A stretch of 64,000 bases of DNA from Clostridiales bacterium (GTDB lineage: Bacteria > Bacillota > Clostridia > Oscillospirales > Oscillospiraceae): contig JAAYAR010000068.1 of NCBI GenBank assembly GCA_012719235.1, forward strand, positions 1-64,000, read 5' to 3'. The notes below the pieces were generated by a model. That model ran no database searches. It was given only the letters and a program-made list of their open reading frames with translations, and was not told the DNA's origin. Below, one piece after another: positions 26,410 to 49,206 of this stretch. A program made the position numbers and the translations under genes. The first letter of the stretch is position 1. Each line of letters begins with the position of its first letter.

Positions 26410-26505
26410 ATCTGAGTAGAAACTGCGCATTAAGTGCTGACGGATGGGAAGTCGCCGTCAGACGAAAAGCTCCGGCTTGTGATGCAGTTTCGCTTCCGCT
26501 GAGAT
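26410..26505 (+). promoter_or_regulatory. Tetrahydrofolate (THF) riboswitch
   Basis: The sequence matches the THF riboswitch consensus closely. The 5' core reads GAGTAGA...TGCGCATTAAGTG. P2 is AAACTGC pairing with GCAGTTT, P3 is CTGACGG pairing with CCGTCAG around the conserved GATGGGAAGT loop, then ACGAAAA, and the 3' core is CGCTTCCGCT. A short P1 can form between ATCT and AGAT. It lies 21 nt after the formate channel gene and 115 nt before folC, so folC and the folate transporter folT are the expected targets; high reduced folate should lower expression in most members of the class. Confidence 0.92.
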
Positions 26506-43360: not shown

Positions 43361-45772
43361 ATGAAGATATTGAATTACAAAAAACTTGTCGCTTTATTGC
43401 TGGCTGCGGCAATTACGTTTTCGCTTGGCGCCTGTGTAAAACGCAGCCCCGGCGGCGACCCGGGCGGAGAGGAGAATCCCTCCACGACGGGTAATTCTCC
43501 CCCTTCGGGAGGCATTCCGGGAGCTCAGAAAGTAAAGCTTGAACACGTATACATAGCCGAGTATCTCGATTTTGAACTGCCGCAAAACGAGTATATCAAC
43601 GCAATGTCCACAAGCGGCGACCTTGTGTACCTGAGCACCTATTACTATAATGAGTCTACCGACGCAGACGGCAATTACACTTATGAGTCCGGTACAAATC
43701 TCTATTCCATGAGCTTTGACGGCTCCGATTTTACCCTGATAAAGAACTTCCCTCAGACAAACGAGCAGGGTGAGAACGGACAGAGCTATAGATATTCATA
43801 TATCAGCAATATAACTCCTGCTCCGGACGGGACCATCTGGTATTACCTTCAGGAGACTTACGAGGATTATTCGGATCCCGACAACTATGTCTATGAGAGC
43901 ACCGGCAACCTCGTGAGGATCGATGCGCAGGGGAATGAGATGTCCAGATATGACGTTTCTTCAATGTCAGATTCGGAGTATTTTTACATCAGCCAGTTCC
44001 TGATCAAGCCAAGCGGTGAACTCGTGCTTTTCTATGATTCCGGGGTGCTCGTACTGGACAAAGACGGAGCTTTATCCTTCAAAATTAATACGGGTACCAA
44101 CGGCTGGTTCGGCGGGGTCGCAATGACAGGAAACGGCGACGTCATAGGAAACTACACTTCATATGATGAGACCGCCGATATGGTGGGCATCAGCAGTTCA
44201 AAGTTTGTGCGCATCAACTTCGCAACACAGTCCCTCGACGAACTTCCAAAACCCGAAATGACCGCCTACAACTTCAGAAACGGGCCGGGCAACACGATAC
44301 TTTTCTACAACAACATGGCCTTGTTCTCATACGACATAATGACGCATGAGACGAAAGAGGAACTCAACTGGATAAACTCCGATATGATCGCATACAGGAT
44401 CAACAATGTAACCGCTCTTGGCGAAGGAAGATTCCTCTCCTGCGAATATACGAAATCATATGACAAGATGCGCTTCGCGATCCTTAAAAAGGCTTCCGAC
44501 ACAGATATCACTGAAAAATATCTGATCACTCTTGCCGCGGTCTATCCCAATGAAGATATACTCGACCTGATAGTGGCATACAATAAACAGAACCCCGATT
44601 ATCGCATACAGCTCAACGACTATTCCGTTTACAACACAGAAGAGAACTGGGAAGCCGGAATGGAGCAGCTCAACATCGATATGGTTTCCGGTAAGATCCC
44701 CGATATACTTATGCTTGAAGGCCTCCCTTACAACAACTACGCGACAAAGGGCCTTCTTGCGGACCTTGGCAAGCTGATGGACGCGGACCCGGACTTCAAC
44801 AGAGCGGACTATCTTGAAAACATCCTCGAGGCCACGAAAGTCAACGGAAAGATCTACAGTCTGATCCCGTCTTTCAATATAAGTACGATCTCGGCAAAAA
44901 CCGAAAACGTAGGTACCGAGCCCGGTTGGACACTCACGGATCTTCAGGCACTCATGAAACGGTTCCCTGGCGCGAAGGCCTTTTCAATGATGACGCGCTC
45001 TGAGGTGCTCAATCATCTCAGCAATATGACGATGGACAGTTACGTGAACATATCCACAGGTGAGTGCAGGTTCAATACACCTGACTTCGTCGGAATGCTG
45101 GAGTTTATCAACACTTTCCCCGAAACGATAGACTGGGACTCATACTACAGCAACCTGCCCGACGATTACTGGGAGCAGGAACAGTGGCAATACAGGGACA
45201 ACAGGACCCTGCTGCGTATGGAATACGTGAGCAACTTCAGCTCAATCAAAGAAGCTGAATACACATTCGGGGGAGAAGTCACTTACATCGGCTTCCCCTG
45301 CCCGGAAGGTGTGGGCTCTTCGATCATGCCTGTTTTCGAGATCGCAATATCTTCAAAGACAAAGTTCACGCCGGCGTGCTGGGAGTTCTTGAAGAGCGTG
45401 ATATCGGAAGAAGCTCAAAATGAGCTCAACTACAGTTTCCCCTTAAGAGTCGATGCTCTCGAAAAGATGAAGGAGCTTGCGATGACGCAGCAGGATAACA
45501 GCGGCGGCCCCATCATATATGAAAAGGCGATAGCCATTGATGAACCCTACCCGGGCGGCGGGGACTGGTATTCAAAACCTGTCACTCAGCAGCAGGCAGA
45601 TAAAGTGATGAAACTGATCATGTCTGTGGACAGCGTGATGCGCGACAACGAGGAGATCCTCAAAATCATTGAGGAGGACGCCGCGGCCTTCTTCGCGGGC
45701 CAGAAAACAGCGCAGGCAGTTGCTGACACTATTCAGAGCCGCGCTTGGATCTATGTGAGCGAAAACAGTTAA
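43361..45772 (+). CDS. Extracellular solute-binding lipoprotein with N-terminal propeller-like domain
   Basis: A lipoprotein (signal to residue about 23, lipobox LGAC) of 803 aa, roughly twice the size of a usual CUT1 binding protein. A Gly/Pro/Ser-rich linker leads to residues about 50-385, with repeated strand-rich segments (TNLYSMSFDGSDFTLI, GNLVRIDAQGNEMSRYDV, GVLVLDKDGALSFKI) suggesting a beta-propeller. From about residue 385 the sequence is a family 1 solute-binding protein (LDLIVAYNKQNPDYRIQLND, IPDILMLEG, LLADLGKLMD). It probably delivers a sugar or oligosaccharide to the permeases upstream, with the propeller as an extra recognition part. ATG 43361 follows AAAGGGGAT. Confidence 0.85.
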   Translation: MKILNYKKLVALLLAAAITFSLGACVKRSPGGDPGGEENPSTTGNSPPSGGIPGAQKVKLEHVYIAEYLDFELPQNEYINAMSTSGDLVYLSTYYYNESTDADGNYTYESGTNLYSMSFDGSDFTLIKNFPQTNEQGENGQSYRYSYISNITPAPDGTIWYYLQETYEDYSDPDNYVYESTGNLVRIDAQGNEMSRYDVSSMSDSEYFYISQFLIKPSGELVLFYDSGVLVLDKDGALSFKINTGTNGWFGGVAMTGNGDVIGNYTSYDETADMVGISSSKFVRINFATQSLDELPKPEMTAYNFRNGPGNTILFYNNMALFSYDIMTHETKEELNWINSDMIAYRINNVTALGEGRFLSCEYTKSYDKMRFAILKKASDTDITEKYLITLAAVYPNEDILDLIVAYNKQNPDYRIQLNDYSVYNTEENWEAGMEQLNIDMVSGKIPDILMLEGLPYNNYATKGLLADLGKLMDADPDFNRADYLENILEATKVNGKIYSLIPSFNISTISAKTENVGTEPGWTLTDLQALMKRFPGAKAFSMMTRSEVLNHLSNMTMDSYVNISTGECRFNTPDFVGMLEFINTFPETIDWDSYYSNLPDDYWEQEQWQYRDNRTLLRMEYVSNFSSIKEAEYTFGGEVTYIGFPCPEGVGSSIMPVFEIAISSKTKFTPACWEFLKSVISEEAQNELNYSFPLRVDALEKMKELAMTQQDNSGGPIIYEKAIAIDEPYPGGGDWYSKPVTQQQADKVMKLIMSVDSVMRDNEEILKIIEEDAAAFFAGQKTAQAVADTIQSRAWIYVSENS

Positions 45773-45794: not shown

Positions 45795-45828
45795 GGCGGC
45801 GCGGGAGAAATTGATCTCCCGCGCCGCC
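45795..45828 (+). terminator. Terminator after the ABC operon
   Basis: GGCGGCGCGGGAGA pairs perfectly (14 bp) with TCTCCCGCGCCGCC around a 6-nt loop AATTGA, followed by GGTATTATTT. It ends the importer operon 22 nt after the lipoprotein stop. Confidence 0.9.
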
Positions 45829-45840
45829 GGTATTATTTGC

Positions 45841-45852
45841 CCAAACGATCCT
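45841..45852. repeat. Direct repeat, left copy
   Basis: CCAAACGATCCT occurs here and again at 46327-46338, 486 bp apart, bracketing the gene-free region. It could be a target duplication, a remnant of a duplication that also copied the hairpin, or chance. Confidence 0.6.
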
Positions 45853-46050
45853 GCGTCTGAATCGGCTGCAACGTAAAGCTGCCGCCCGTCGTGAGATCCG
45901 TACACACAGAAGGGAAGGAGAGAGTATCCGCCTTAACGCTTTCCCGGCGGCAATGCCTCATCTGCGGCGTCAGAGTGGATTCGAACCTTTGCCTCCGTTT
46001 CGGAAGACCTCGTTGCAAATATCCGAGGACCGATACTGCCCGAACCCGAA

Positions 46051-46081
46051 AACGCTGCCCCGCATTAAGCAAGGCAGCGTT
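46051..46081. repeat. 31-nt hairpin repeat, copy 1
   Basis: AACGCTGCC pairs with GGCAGCGTT. The 31-nt unit matches the one at 46290-46320 at 28 positions. On the minus strand it is followed by TTTTC, so it may terminate a minus-strand transcript from 46082-46288, a 207-nt stretch without a gene but with its own hairpins (ATTCGGCG/CGCCGAGT, GCCGC/GCGGC). Confidence 0.7.
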
Positions 46082-46288
46082 GACCGCTATACAGGACGCT
46101 CGTCATTTACACGGACCGGAGATAGACCCCGCCGCTGAAGCGGCTAGATAGGTAAGCCATTCGGCGCACATCGCCGAGTGCCCGGGTGCTCAATAAATTC
46201 CAATAATCGGTCACGCGCACGAAACACGATGCAGAGATTCCGCCGCACTGCTAAAGGATTGTGTACCTGATATTCTTCTAGACAGTCT

Positions 46289-46321
46289 AAACGCTGCCCC
46301 GAATTAAGTGAGGCAGCGTTT
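46289..46321. terminator. 31-nt hairpin repeat, copy 2; terminator of the membrane protein gene
   Basis: AAACGCTGCC pairs with GGCAGCGTTT. It lies 15 nt after the stop of the minus-strand membrane protein gene and so probably ends that transcript; on the plus strand TTTCTT follows. Near-copy of the hairpin at 46051-46081. Confidence 0.7.
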
Positions 46322-46326
46322 CTTCG

Positions 46327-46338
46327 CCAAACGATCCT
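46327..46338. repeat. Direct repeat, right copy
   Basis: Second copy of CCAAACGATCCT; it overlaps the last two bases of the stop codon of the neighbouring membrane protein gene. Confidence 0.6.
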
Positions 46339-47131
46339 ATTGTATTTTCACCATCATGCCTATGACACATATCAGGAAATAAGCTATCGATACGTACATC
46401 AGAACATATGCGACTGCCGCGCCGAGGAAAAACGATGCCAGAAGCATAACCGTCAGCAGTGCGAGCGTTATGTACAGCCAGATATGGCTGCCGGACGGAC
46501 TCAGAAGCTTGAAAGGTTTTCCGCCGACCCTTAATGCGGTTCTCCCTGACTTTTCGATCAATGCTGCTGCGAATACGGCGGCATTTATTAAAAAGAGTAC
46601 GGCATACAGGATGACCCAGGTCGCGCTCATCGGTACTAAATATCTGCTCGAATACCAGTAAAGCGCCGCACTCAACCCGCAAAGAATGAGAGAGACAAAG
46701 CCCTCCCGGACGAAAACAGTGTGCAGAAAGTAATATATGGCCGCTATCGGCAGAATGATCGATAGGAAGCCGCTGATCTGGTAGCCGACAAAATAGAGCA
46801 GAGCGGCGCAAACGCATGCCGCCAGTCCGGAGACCGACAGGAAGGCAAACCAATAAGCTTTATCCGGATCCTGACGCCTCTTCTGCCTGTAATAAAGAAA
46901 AATGCCGGCCAGGAATACCAGTGCACCAAAAACCATGAGTATTCTCAGCCCGAGCATAGTGTCGGGACCCTGAGAAGCGACACGGTTTCGCAGAAACATG
47001 ATCCCCAAAGTGCCGATAAATGCAACAGAAAAAGCGGCCATAATCTTGTTTGCGATTATATCCGCCTCTTTTTGTCTTTTTGCTCCGGTATTCGACTTAT
47101 TGCTGCGTGTCTTATGCCTTGTCCTGCTCAT
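46337..47131 (-). CDS. Hypothetical multi-pass membrane protein
   Basis: I do not recognise the family. The 264-aa product starts with a basic, Ser/Arg/Lys-rich cytoplasmic tail (MSRTRHKTRSNKSNTG), then has about seven hydrophobic segments, for example AFSVAFIGTLGIMFL, ILMVFGALVFLAGIFLYY, VSGLAACVCAALLYFVGY, ISGFLSIILPIAAIYYFLHT and IWLYITLALLTVMLLASFF. ATG 47131 is taken as the start; a TTG at 47197 in frame would add 22 residues that look unlike a membrane protein N-terminus. It follows xerD on the same strand after about 200 nt, near SpoIIM and YlbJ, so a sporulation or envelope role is possible but unsupported. Confidence 0.75.
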   Translation of the reverse strand: MSRTRHKTRSNKSNTGAKRQKEADIIANKIMAAFSVAFIGTLGIMFLRNRVASQGPDTMLGLRILMVFGALVFLAGIFLYYRQKRRQDPDKAYWFAFLSVSGLAACVCAALLYFVGYQISGFLSIILPIAAIYYFLHTVFVREGFVSLILCGLSAALYWYSSRYLVPMSATWVILYAVLFLINAAVFAAALIEKSGRTALRVGGKPFKLLSPSGSHIWLYITLALLTVMLLASFFLGAAVAYVLMYVSIAYFLICVIGMMVKIQ

Positions 47132-47333
47132 TTGCTTACCAACCTGTCTGATAATATGACACGGTTCAAGTAAATTACTTTTTCCGCCCGGGTTCAACCC
47201 GCGCAGTCCGCGGTACCCGATGAACTCCTGTAATATTAACAGAAAACAGGCCGTTTTGCAATATCAAAATAACTGCCGCCTTCAGCAACACCGTTCCGGG
47301 AATATATCAAGGATCGCTTCTGCCGGCTGTCGA

Positions 47334-48224
47334 TCACTCGTTCGACGCAAGGGGATGCGCCTTATTATAGACCTCCTTCAGGTGCTGGCTGACGATCTGC
47401 GTATAGATACGTGTCGAGGATACGTCGGCATGACCAAGCATCTCCTGAACAGCGTGCAGGTCCGCTCCGTTTTCAAGAAGGTGTGCCGCGAAAGAATGTC
47501 TGAGAGTGTGGGGGGTGATGTCTTTTTTGATTCCCGCCATCTCTTTATAGTGCTTGATGATCTTCCAGAAACCCTGCCTGGACATCGGCTCACCGTTTAT
47601 ATTGACAAATAAGGTCTCCTCATCCGGCGATGCGGTCAGTCGGGGCCTGACAGTCGTTAAATAATCCGACAGTGCCTTTACAGCCCGCGGATAGAGCGGG
47701 ATTATTCTTGTTTTTCCTTTGCTTGTGCAGTGGATATATGAGCCCGGCAGATTTAGCTCACTGACTTTCAGGGTCGTGAGTTCGGTAACCTGGATTCCGG
47801 TTGCGTACAGCAGTTCCAGCATAGTCCGGTCCCTGCAGCCTTTCAGATCGGACATACTCGGCTGCTCTAGCAGGAGTTCGACCTCCTTGCTTGTCAGTAT
47901 CTCGGGCAATTTCCGTACTACACGGGCGGGGCACACGTTTTTTGCGGGCAAATAATCTACGACGCCCTCATCCATCAGGAAAATATAGAAGGCCTTTATG
48001 GAAGCCGCCGAACGGTTTACGGTCGCGGGAGACTTCCCGGAGGCAAGAAGGTGTTTCAGATAGTTTGATATAAAAGCCTGGTCAGCATCCGGCAGATTTA
48101 CGTTTTTTTCAGCCGCGAATTCACTGAACTGACGCACGTCCCGGAGGTATGAGCTTAATGTATTGTCAGATGAGTGCTTTACATCTCTTAAGTATTTCTC
48201 AAAACCGCGCAGATAATCCTCCAA
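47334..48224 (-). CDS. xerD: XerD-like tyrosine recombinase with Arg-to-Gln change
   Basis: Tyrosine recombinase with an N-terminal SAM-like DNA-binding domain (residues 1-90) and a C-terminal catalytic domain. Conserved residues are Lys169 in TSKGKTR, His239 and Arg242 in PHTLRHSFAAHLL, His265 in MLGHADVSS, and Tyr274 in TRIYTQ. The first catalytic arginine, normally in ATGLRVSEL, is Gln145 here (ATGIQVTELTTL, codon CAG). Chromosomal XerD resolves dimers at dif, but with this change strand cleavage could be weak or need a partner. Length (296 aa) is normal. It lies next to spoIIM, a frequent Firmicute arrangement. Confidence 0.88.
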   Translation of the reverse strand: MEDYLRGFEKYLRDVKHSSDNTLSSYLRDVRQFSEFAAEKNVNLPDADQAFISNYLKHLLASGKSPATVNRSAASIKAFYIFLMDEGVVDYLPAKNVCPARVVRKLPEILTSKEVELLLEQPSMSDLKGCRDRTMLELLYATGIQVTELTTLKVSELNLPGSYIHCTSKGKTRIIPLYPRAVKALSDYLTTVRPRLTASPDEETLFVNINGEPMSRQGFWKIIKHYKEMAGIKKDITPHTLRHSFAAHLLENGADLHAVQEMLGHADVSSTRIYTQIVSQHLKEVYNKAHPLASNE

Positions 48225-48250
48225 CCAAAGCTCACCTCCATTTGATAACT

Positions 48251-48862
48251 TTACATACAGAGCGGGAACAGCTCGGGGATAAGAAAGGTCTCAATGGCAA
48301 AAGGGAAAACAAGCATGAGCAGACCGGAAATCACGTCAATGTAGAAGGGCTTGTCATACACCGGAAAAGCATCGGGGATCCTCCCGAAGCTGAAGCACAT
48401 AAGGGCACTTGAGGACCTGGAGCAGGCGCACGATATGCGAAGAAGGCAAGGTACGGCGATAATCTGCGTTGGCAGAACAGCCAGACAAGCGAACAAAAGG
48501 CCGGACCTGCCATGCCTCATAACAAGAAAAGAGATTATGTATGAAATCTGAAAAGACCGGGCTCCTACAAGAAGAGGCAGCAACAGGCCGCCAAAGGTCA
48601 TGTATCCGCATAACAATATCAAGCAGGGAAACACGTACGTGCGAAAAAGAACATCGTAGACGTCAGGCTTTGGCGCTCGTCCCGATACGGCATTGTAAAA
48701 ATACTCTTCAAGTATTGCGGTTCCGGTCAAAGCGAGATCGATCTTACCCGCAGCGACGCATCCGAGTATGATGCCGACAACAAAAAAAATGGTCAGCTTG
48801 ATATATATCTGAAGATCCCGCGCATTTATTTTGCGCGTCGCACCTTTTCTGATACGTGTCAC
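48251..48862 (-). CDS. spoIIM: Stage II sporulation protein M
   Basis: Membrane protein of the SpoIIM (DUF95) family; SpoIIM acts with SpoIID and SpoIIP in engulfment. The 203-aa product has about five hydrophobic segments, including LTIFFVVGIILGCVAAG near residue 22, PCLILLCGYMTFGGLLLPLL then VGARSF, and ISGLLMLVFPFAIETFLIPE at the end. The start is GTG 48862, behind GAGGTGA; the frame runs further upstream without similarity. Next to xerD, as in Bacillus and clostridia. A sigma-E promoter is expected but could not be identified in the AT-rich 48863-49206 gap, where I see no gene. Confidence 0.82.
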   Translation of the reverse strand: MTRIRKGATRKINARDLQIYIKLTIFFVVGIILGCVAAGKIDLALTGTAILEEYFYNAVSGRAPKPDVYDVLFRTYVFPCLILLCGYMTFGGLLLPLLVGARSFQISYIISFLVMRHGRSGLLFACLAVLPTQIIAVPCLLRISCACSRSSSALMCFSFGRIPDAFPVYDKPFYIDVISGLLMLVFPFAIETFLIPELFPLCM

Positions 48863-49206
48863 TGCCTTCACCTCAGTAGAGGATATGCGGCAGTTGTCCG
48901 AAATAGTATTGCTAAATAGTGATAACCCAGCCAAAGATTAACATAACAAATGTATTGTTACTATAAATTATGTCGTGGAAAAATGCAAGGATAATCTGAA
49001 AAAATCCCGAATAAATCTCATTATTCGATGTAATTATGTAAAGAACATTACGTAAACCAAGTAAACCGGGACAATACAAACGGTATATCCCAACAAGATG
49101 TGGTATTCAGTGCGGCTCGGGGCACTAAATACGCGGCCGTCCCGTCCTTGATGCGCGGAAACAGCCAAAACACACGAAATACAGACAGTATAACGGTGCA
49201 CCGGGG

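Follow-up and report, generated by a model that had tools for sequence, protein, structure and literature searches.

A probable decayed MITE of the IS1182 type, flanked by duplicated terminator-like hairpins, in an intergenic block of an Oscillospiraceae genome

The window, that is, the whole stretch of 64,000 nucleotides that was analysed, contains a gene-free block of about 500 bp located between two convergent genes. No convincing gene was found among the reading frames of the block, in agreement with a sequence-only reading that had seen no convincing protein-coding signal there. That reading had pointed to an exact 12-bp direct repeat (CCAAACGATCCT) enclosing the block, to two near-identical hairpins and to an 11-mer resembling a tRNA T arm (GGTTCGAATCC, minus strand, approximately 45977-45987), all of which lie where it had placed them (Table 1). 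Elsewhere in the window, a tetrahydrofolate (THF) riboswitch was detected at 26410-26503 on the plus strand (75.3 bits, gathering score 36), and the minus-strand stretch 47334-48934 matched both a XerD/XerC-type tyrosine recombinase, with a score above the subfamily threshold, and, below its own threshold, a stage II sporulation protein M-like protein.

Table 1. Features of the block and its immediate surroundings (window coordinates)
Feature	Position	Strand	Evidence
Terminator-like hairpin of the upstream plus-strand gene (43361-45772), outside the element	45795-45828	+	Perfect 14-bp arms
CCAAACGATCCT copy 1, chance-level repeat, not an element end	45841-45852	+	Repeat count against Markov model
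Left terminator-like hairpin copy (putative target-site duplication)	46050-46081	.	29/32 positions identical to right copy; flank test above 99th percentile of mismatched pairs
Probable decayed MITE, 207 bp, oriented as covariance model R1	46082-46288	+	R1 match at 46082-46258, 147 bits; right end resembling the family end
Left-end hairpin of the MITE, degenerate in the window copy	46085-46113	+	Alignment A3, helix 1
Hairpin GCCGC-TGAA-GCGGC	46131-46144	+	Alignment A3, helix 2
Covarying hairpin with conserved loop motif, GGCGCACATCGCC in the window copy	46154-46184	+	Alignment A3, helix 3: 7/12 pairs changed on both sides
A+T-rich stem enclosing CGGTCACG, borders approximate	46195-46239	+	Alignment A3, helices 4 and 5
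Right terminal inverted repeat TTCTTCTAGACAGTCT, degenerate	46273-46288	+	Sequence; family end is TTTTTYGACANNCTG
Right terminator-like hairpin copy, without long T-run	46289-46320	.	Starts 16 bp past the stop codon of the minus-strand gene
CCAAACGATCCT copy 2, chance-level repeat	46327-46338	+	Repeat count against Markov model
286-aa reading frame, its terminator-like hairpin being the putative insertion target	46337-47197	-	Reading-frame list
Hairpin duplicated around the window MITE, sequence form AAACGCTGCCCC..GGCAGCGTT			

The 12-bp repeat, previously singled out as a notable feature, is at chance level: pairs of 12-mers at most 600 bp apart are common, and the 64-kb window contains nine of them (the hairpin pair being one) against a Markov-model mean of 2.6. 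The duplication of the hairpins, already noticed in that reading, is beyond chance: the left and right flanks of the window copy score 49 against each other, compared to a 99th percentile of 22.5 for mismatched flank pairs from the same genome (756 in all); moreover, the DNA between them belongs to a multi-copy family. As exact copies on either side of the block, the 12-mers could be taken as the true ends of a 500-bp insertion in which the hairpin pair arose by chance or by a recombinational duplication. This is extremely unlikely, given how common such pairs are, that the genome repeats only the part between the hairpins, and that sister copies end in hairpins, not in 12-mers. The inserted element suggested by the sequence-only reading thus holds as an insertion, with the duplicated hairpins and not the 12-bp repeats at its ends, and with 46082-46288 rather than the whole block as its extent.

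A blastn search of the block against its own genome retrieved 13 further places (70-93% identity), all matching inside 46093-46276, and no repeats of 45841-46049 were found elsewhere in that genome. The window copy had no blastn match in 59 relatives, which were reached instead with a covariance model (R1) and an end pattern. R1 retrieved 42 matches in the own genome; in seven of these it had hit the opposite strand of another match, whose left hairpin is self-complementary, so that about 35 places are left. Across the bacterial family, R1 matches were present in 21 out of 120 genomes, the own genome included, five others holding 4 to 14 each. An exact scan of named genomes for the loop motif CGACGCACATGTCGCCG detected at least 118 stretches; among the matches listed, most belong to Oscillospiraceae and related Clostridia, including Flavonifractor sp. 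An10 and Intestinimonas. The 17 listed loci from other phyla were taken as chance hits and left out of the flank, duplication, palindrome-position and end-hairpin tests. Short, devoid of a convincing transposase gene and accompanied by many dispersed copies, the window element has the properties of a MITE. The block is most probably a decayed member of an unusual MITE family and not a new RNA; the interest lies with the family, of which the window copy is not a good representative. Seven copies of the own genome (L011, L012, L013, L015, L032, L033 and L045) carry a longer hairpin module, AAAGCCTTCCCC..GGATGAGGTG..CACCTCATCC..GAGAAGGC, in place of the middle hairpin, a pattern that would fit the insertion of one repeat into another.

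Eight copies make up alignment A3, in which 90.6% of the stem cells are paired, against 45.6% at best in a sliding control that is biased in favour of the structure, as this was drawn from the same sequences. Eleven pairs show changes on both sides, compared to 4.6 in shuffles, and none of 500 shuffles reached any of the five measures. Conservation with covariation, which had been proposed as a check on the block, is thus found across family copies and favours the insertion reading. The interior may covary because its hairpins are required for transposition, because they hinder read-through or because they belong to an RNA.

Candidate known RNAs were searched for in the block. A relaxed Rfam search (E up to 5) returned only unrelated families at E 0.33 and 4.2, with no tRNA among them, and ARAGORN found no tRNA or tmRNA gene in the window; the T-arm-like 11-mer was accordingly treated as a coincidence.

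The covarying internal stems and the retention of the loop motif across genera would also be expected if a functional, structured non-coding RNA were encoded here on one strand or the other and used the flanking hairpins as its terminators; one copy, L006, folds much better than its shuffles do (z -5.4 on one strand and -6.4 on the other). We regard such an RNA as very unlikely, however. No Rfam model, including raiA (suggested earlier as a likeness), 6S, tmRNA and RNase P, matched the block or its copies at gathering score, and the whole window block folds about as well as shuffled sequence (z about -1.1 on either strand). The flanking hairpins are locus-specific and duplicated, the terminal repeats are common to the family and to IS1182 elements, and an empty site exists. 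Furthermore, the orientation of the elements relative to a single facing gene end (38 to 24) shows no clear preference and at most a slight bias.

The relatives share an anatomy in which a terminator-like hairpin is followed by an element running from CAGNNTGTCRAAAAA to TTTTTYGACANNCTG and then by the same hairpin, the borders being CAGNNTGTCGAAAAAG at the left and its complement at the right. The fetched loci read hairpin, CAG..TGTCGAAAAAG, approximately 160-280 bp, CTTTTTCGACA..CTG and hairpin. These ends are intact in relatives and degenerate in the window copy. The end pattern was present in six out of seven searched genomes, with none in the backward control, and in 71 out of 200 genomes of the bacterial family, where the backward control gave single scattered hits. 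Exact hits numbered 88 in genome G120 and 38 in G187, many of them close to contig ends. At four loci (L261, L267, L268 and L287), two element ends placed back to back form a palindrome 32 to about 40 bp long, which at L267 and L287 is all that lies between two different hairpins.

In several loci, a matching terminator-like hairpin was seen before and after the element, and the hairpins differed between loci. A first flank test covered 148 loci, five of which (L112, L181, L187, L217 and L219) were contig-edge artefacts with a score of 720; 49 of the remaining 143 motif-bearing loci scored above the 99th percentile for mismatched flanks. Among the 28 copies of the own genome with both flanks, six exceeded the 99th percentile of the 756 mismatched pairs, the window copy included. 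L028 and L033 were unflagged in that test, the model match covering their hairpins, which are visible by eye in the sequence.

Target-site duplications were then assessed in 80 two-ended candidates (66 of MITE size and 14 of IS size), a set in which some pairings are spurious, such as those of the IS-size L196 and L247. Duplications were detected in 45 of them (above the 99.5th percentile of 2000 mismatched pairs), with controls near zero. Their median length was 29 bp (range 17-44), and in 34 out of 45 they abut both ends without offset. All 45 are palindromic, with a median self-complementarity of 0.85 against 0.44 in shuffled sequence. Among the 30 with at most one mismatch, the centre of the palindrome coincides with that of the duplication in 25, and base pairing is 77-100% inside the duplication, 60-70% at the first two outer bases and 40-53% beyond them, which places the cuts at or near the foot of the stem. 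The 3′ end of a gene faces the element in 24 of these 30 loci, at a median distance of 16.5 bp from the stop codon. Among the 77 candidates of a more restricted size range, hairpins lie directly at the left end in 55 and directly at the right end in 58, where 5% would be expected.

The 35 candidates without a detected duplication comprise some spurious pairings and others whose flanks differ. In L233 and L237, the flank pair has drifted apart and both members are still hairpins, which suggests that both copies are kept. Two insertions in G120 (L250 and L251) lie at non-hairpin sites, with the short end repeats GTATC and ATTCCATT, so a hairpin is no absolute need. At four loci (L016, L184, L208 and L216), an inverted comparison of the flanking hairpins outscores the direct one, as if the hairpin had flipped.

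An empty site had also been named as a check. Four sites joined in silico by removal of the element were compared with 34 genomes of the genus of G021, 26 of which gave some match. At the L241 site, genome G140 matches across the join at 95% and holds one hairpin (GCGAGGGCCGCCCAACAAGCGGCCCTCAA) where G021 has hairpin, element and hairpin; G347 matches at 82%, also with a single hairpin. Two spanning matches that were aligned (L358 and L359) each hold a different single hairpin, and other spanning matches, known as unaligned matches only, lie at 68-72%. In G353, judging by match positions only, the match is split into two parts approximately 200 bp apart, as if the site were occupied. No spanning match outside G021 was found for the L237 site in the 34 genomes, the L240 site had only distant ones (about 71%) and the L318 site an incomplete one. 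The empty site is, thus, that of the sister copy L241 and not that of the window copy.

A search for paired ends 0.5-4 kb apart yielded no convincing autonomous element. The route to autonomous copies came from contig ends in G068 and G076, where an element end adjoining a hairpin is followed by a transposase reading frame, relatives of which are present in 45 out of 300 genomes of the bacterial family. Four full-length IS carry both ends and a hairpin duplication: L298 (30 bp), L300 (29 bp), L307 (35 bp, two mismatches) and L318 (31 bp). Against the IS1182 model of NCBIfam, which has a cut-off of 270, the transposases of the three that were scanned (L300, L307 and L318) reach 385-394 bits, and they contain the Pfam domains DDE_Tnp_1_6 (PF13751), DUF772 (PF05598) and DDE_Tnp_1 (PF01609). 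Terminal inverted repeats are common to the MITE relatives and the autonomous IS, and in L298 and L300, as in the MITEs, the hairpin near the left end consists of the end and an inverted copy of it. The IS1182 copies of G155 (L274 and L275) have no CAG ends. Among plasmid-borne elements, the ISBspe1-type L350 and the Sutcliffiella element L351 show whole-hairpin duplications, L347 and L349 have two different hairpins, the ISEfa7 copy L382 has a hairpin on the right only, and L348 is cut off at the record end.

The L300 transposase, used as a query, matched 3 out of 14 genomes, with no match in the own genome, G021 or G033. With 11 of the 14 lacking an IS1182 transposase of this type, and several of these rich in MITEs and nearly complete, a MITE family of the same anatomy could have been mobilised by an enzyme of another kind. 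We consider this improbable to a high degree, as IS1182 elements of the same bacterial family share the ends and the kind of duplication, and the genomes G187 and G068 each combine MITE-type ends with a fragment of an IS1182 element. The assembly of the own genome is a draft of 199 contigs, 94% complete, and since it is a draft and the copies are old, the partner of the own-genome copies may have been lost or left unassembled.

Taken together, the block is very probably an old, decayed MITE derived from a transposon of the IS1182 type whose targets are terminator hairpins and whose insertion duplicates the whole stem-loop. The non-autonomous element would be moved in trans by an IS1182-family DDE transposase, which presumably recognises the extruded hairpin. 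At the terminator of a gene, the enzyme would attach one element end to each strand at the foot of the stem, leaving gaps on both sides that cover the whole hairpin; repair would fill these in to give a full hairpin on either side, with the stagger dictated by the hairpin and no fixed spacing. The window copy is likely to have arisen like its better-preserved relatives, and, as its hairpins represent a target-site duplication, the gene next to the insertion probably keeps its stop signal. With a terminator retained beside the stop codon, insertion would be nearly harmless and copies could accumulate. Points against this reading are the 35 two-ended candidates without a detected duplication, the degenerate ends of the window copy, the absence of a detected IS1182 transposase in its own genome and in 10 of the 13 others searched, the four loci where inverted hairpins fit better, the few non-hairpin insertions and an empty site that is that of a sister copy.

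An intergenic block that had no explanation thereby becomes part of a large family of repeats in gut Oscillospiraceae. The family provides genome-scale support, including an empty site, for a transposition that duplicates a whole terminator hairpin, opens the IS1182 targeting mechanism to direct testing and explains the paired identical terminators of these genomes. Annotators could otherwise mistake its covarying hairpins for a new RNA.

Other dispersed or terminator-associated elements differ from this family. Group IIC introns insert beside terminator hairpins, are RNA-based and are not known to have terminal inverted repeats or to duplicate hairpins; Rfam gave no intron family match in the block or its copies. 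The BOX, RUP and SPRITE elements of Streptococcus pneumoniae presumably carry other ends than the family described here. They are named as MITEs in PMC10969869 and are, likewise, short, structured, dispersed and intergenic, while the available text of that paper mentions no duplication of host terminators. Whole-terminator duplication by MITEs is not described in the available parts of PMC10969869 and PMC3852290, and no description of IS1182 MITEs or of such duplication was found in the CC-licensed PMC literature.

The closest systems belong to the IS1182 family itself. L350, an IS1182-like element of the ISBspe1 family on an Alkalihalophilus plasmid, has the ends CAGGCTGTTGAGAAA ... TTTCTCAACAATCTG and a duplicated 20-bp palindrome; it differs in being autonomous and in its host, which is from another order of bacteria. 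According to the accessible portions of Furi 2016 (PMC4923244) and Wan 2017 (PMC5678879), IS1272 and TnSha1 share with the elements described here an IS1182-family transposase, insertion at stem-loops, often terminators, and little sequence preference. IS1272, however, is reported to lose the target stem-loop and to make no duplication, a mode that the present elements do not follow: they duplicate the whole hairpin, and their non-autonomous copies dominate. In the same portions, Wan 2017 (PMC5678879) refers to Siguier for members of the family that target palindromes, on which no detailed data are given, and distinguishes three outcomes by joining point, among which joining at the 5′ feet, hypothetical and unobserved there, would duplicate the whole stem-loop. 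The present elements look like this outcome. We lean, with moderate confidence, towards a generalisation in which IS1182-type transposases of this group read DNA shape and carry out both strand transfers at the 5′ feet of two extruded hairpins, as in the pathway drawn in Wan 2017, so that one DDE enzyme would yield duplications of 17 to 44 bp set by the target hairpin, and MITEs would take advantage of this to occupy terminators with little burden on the host.
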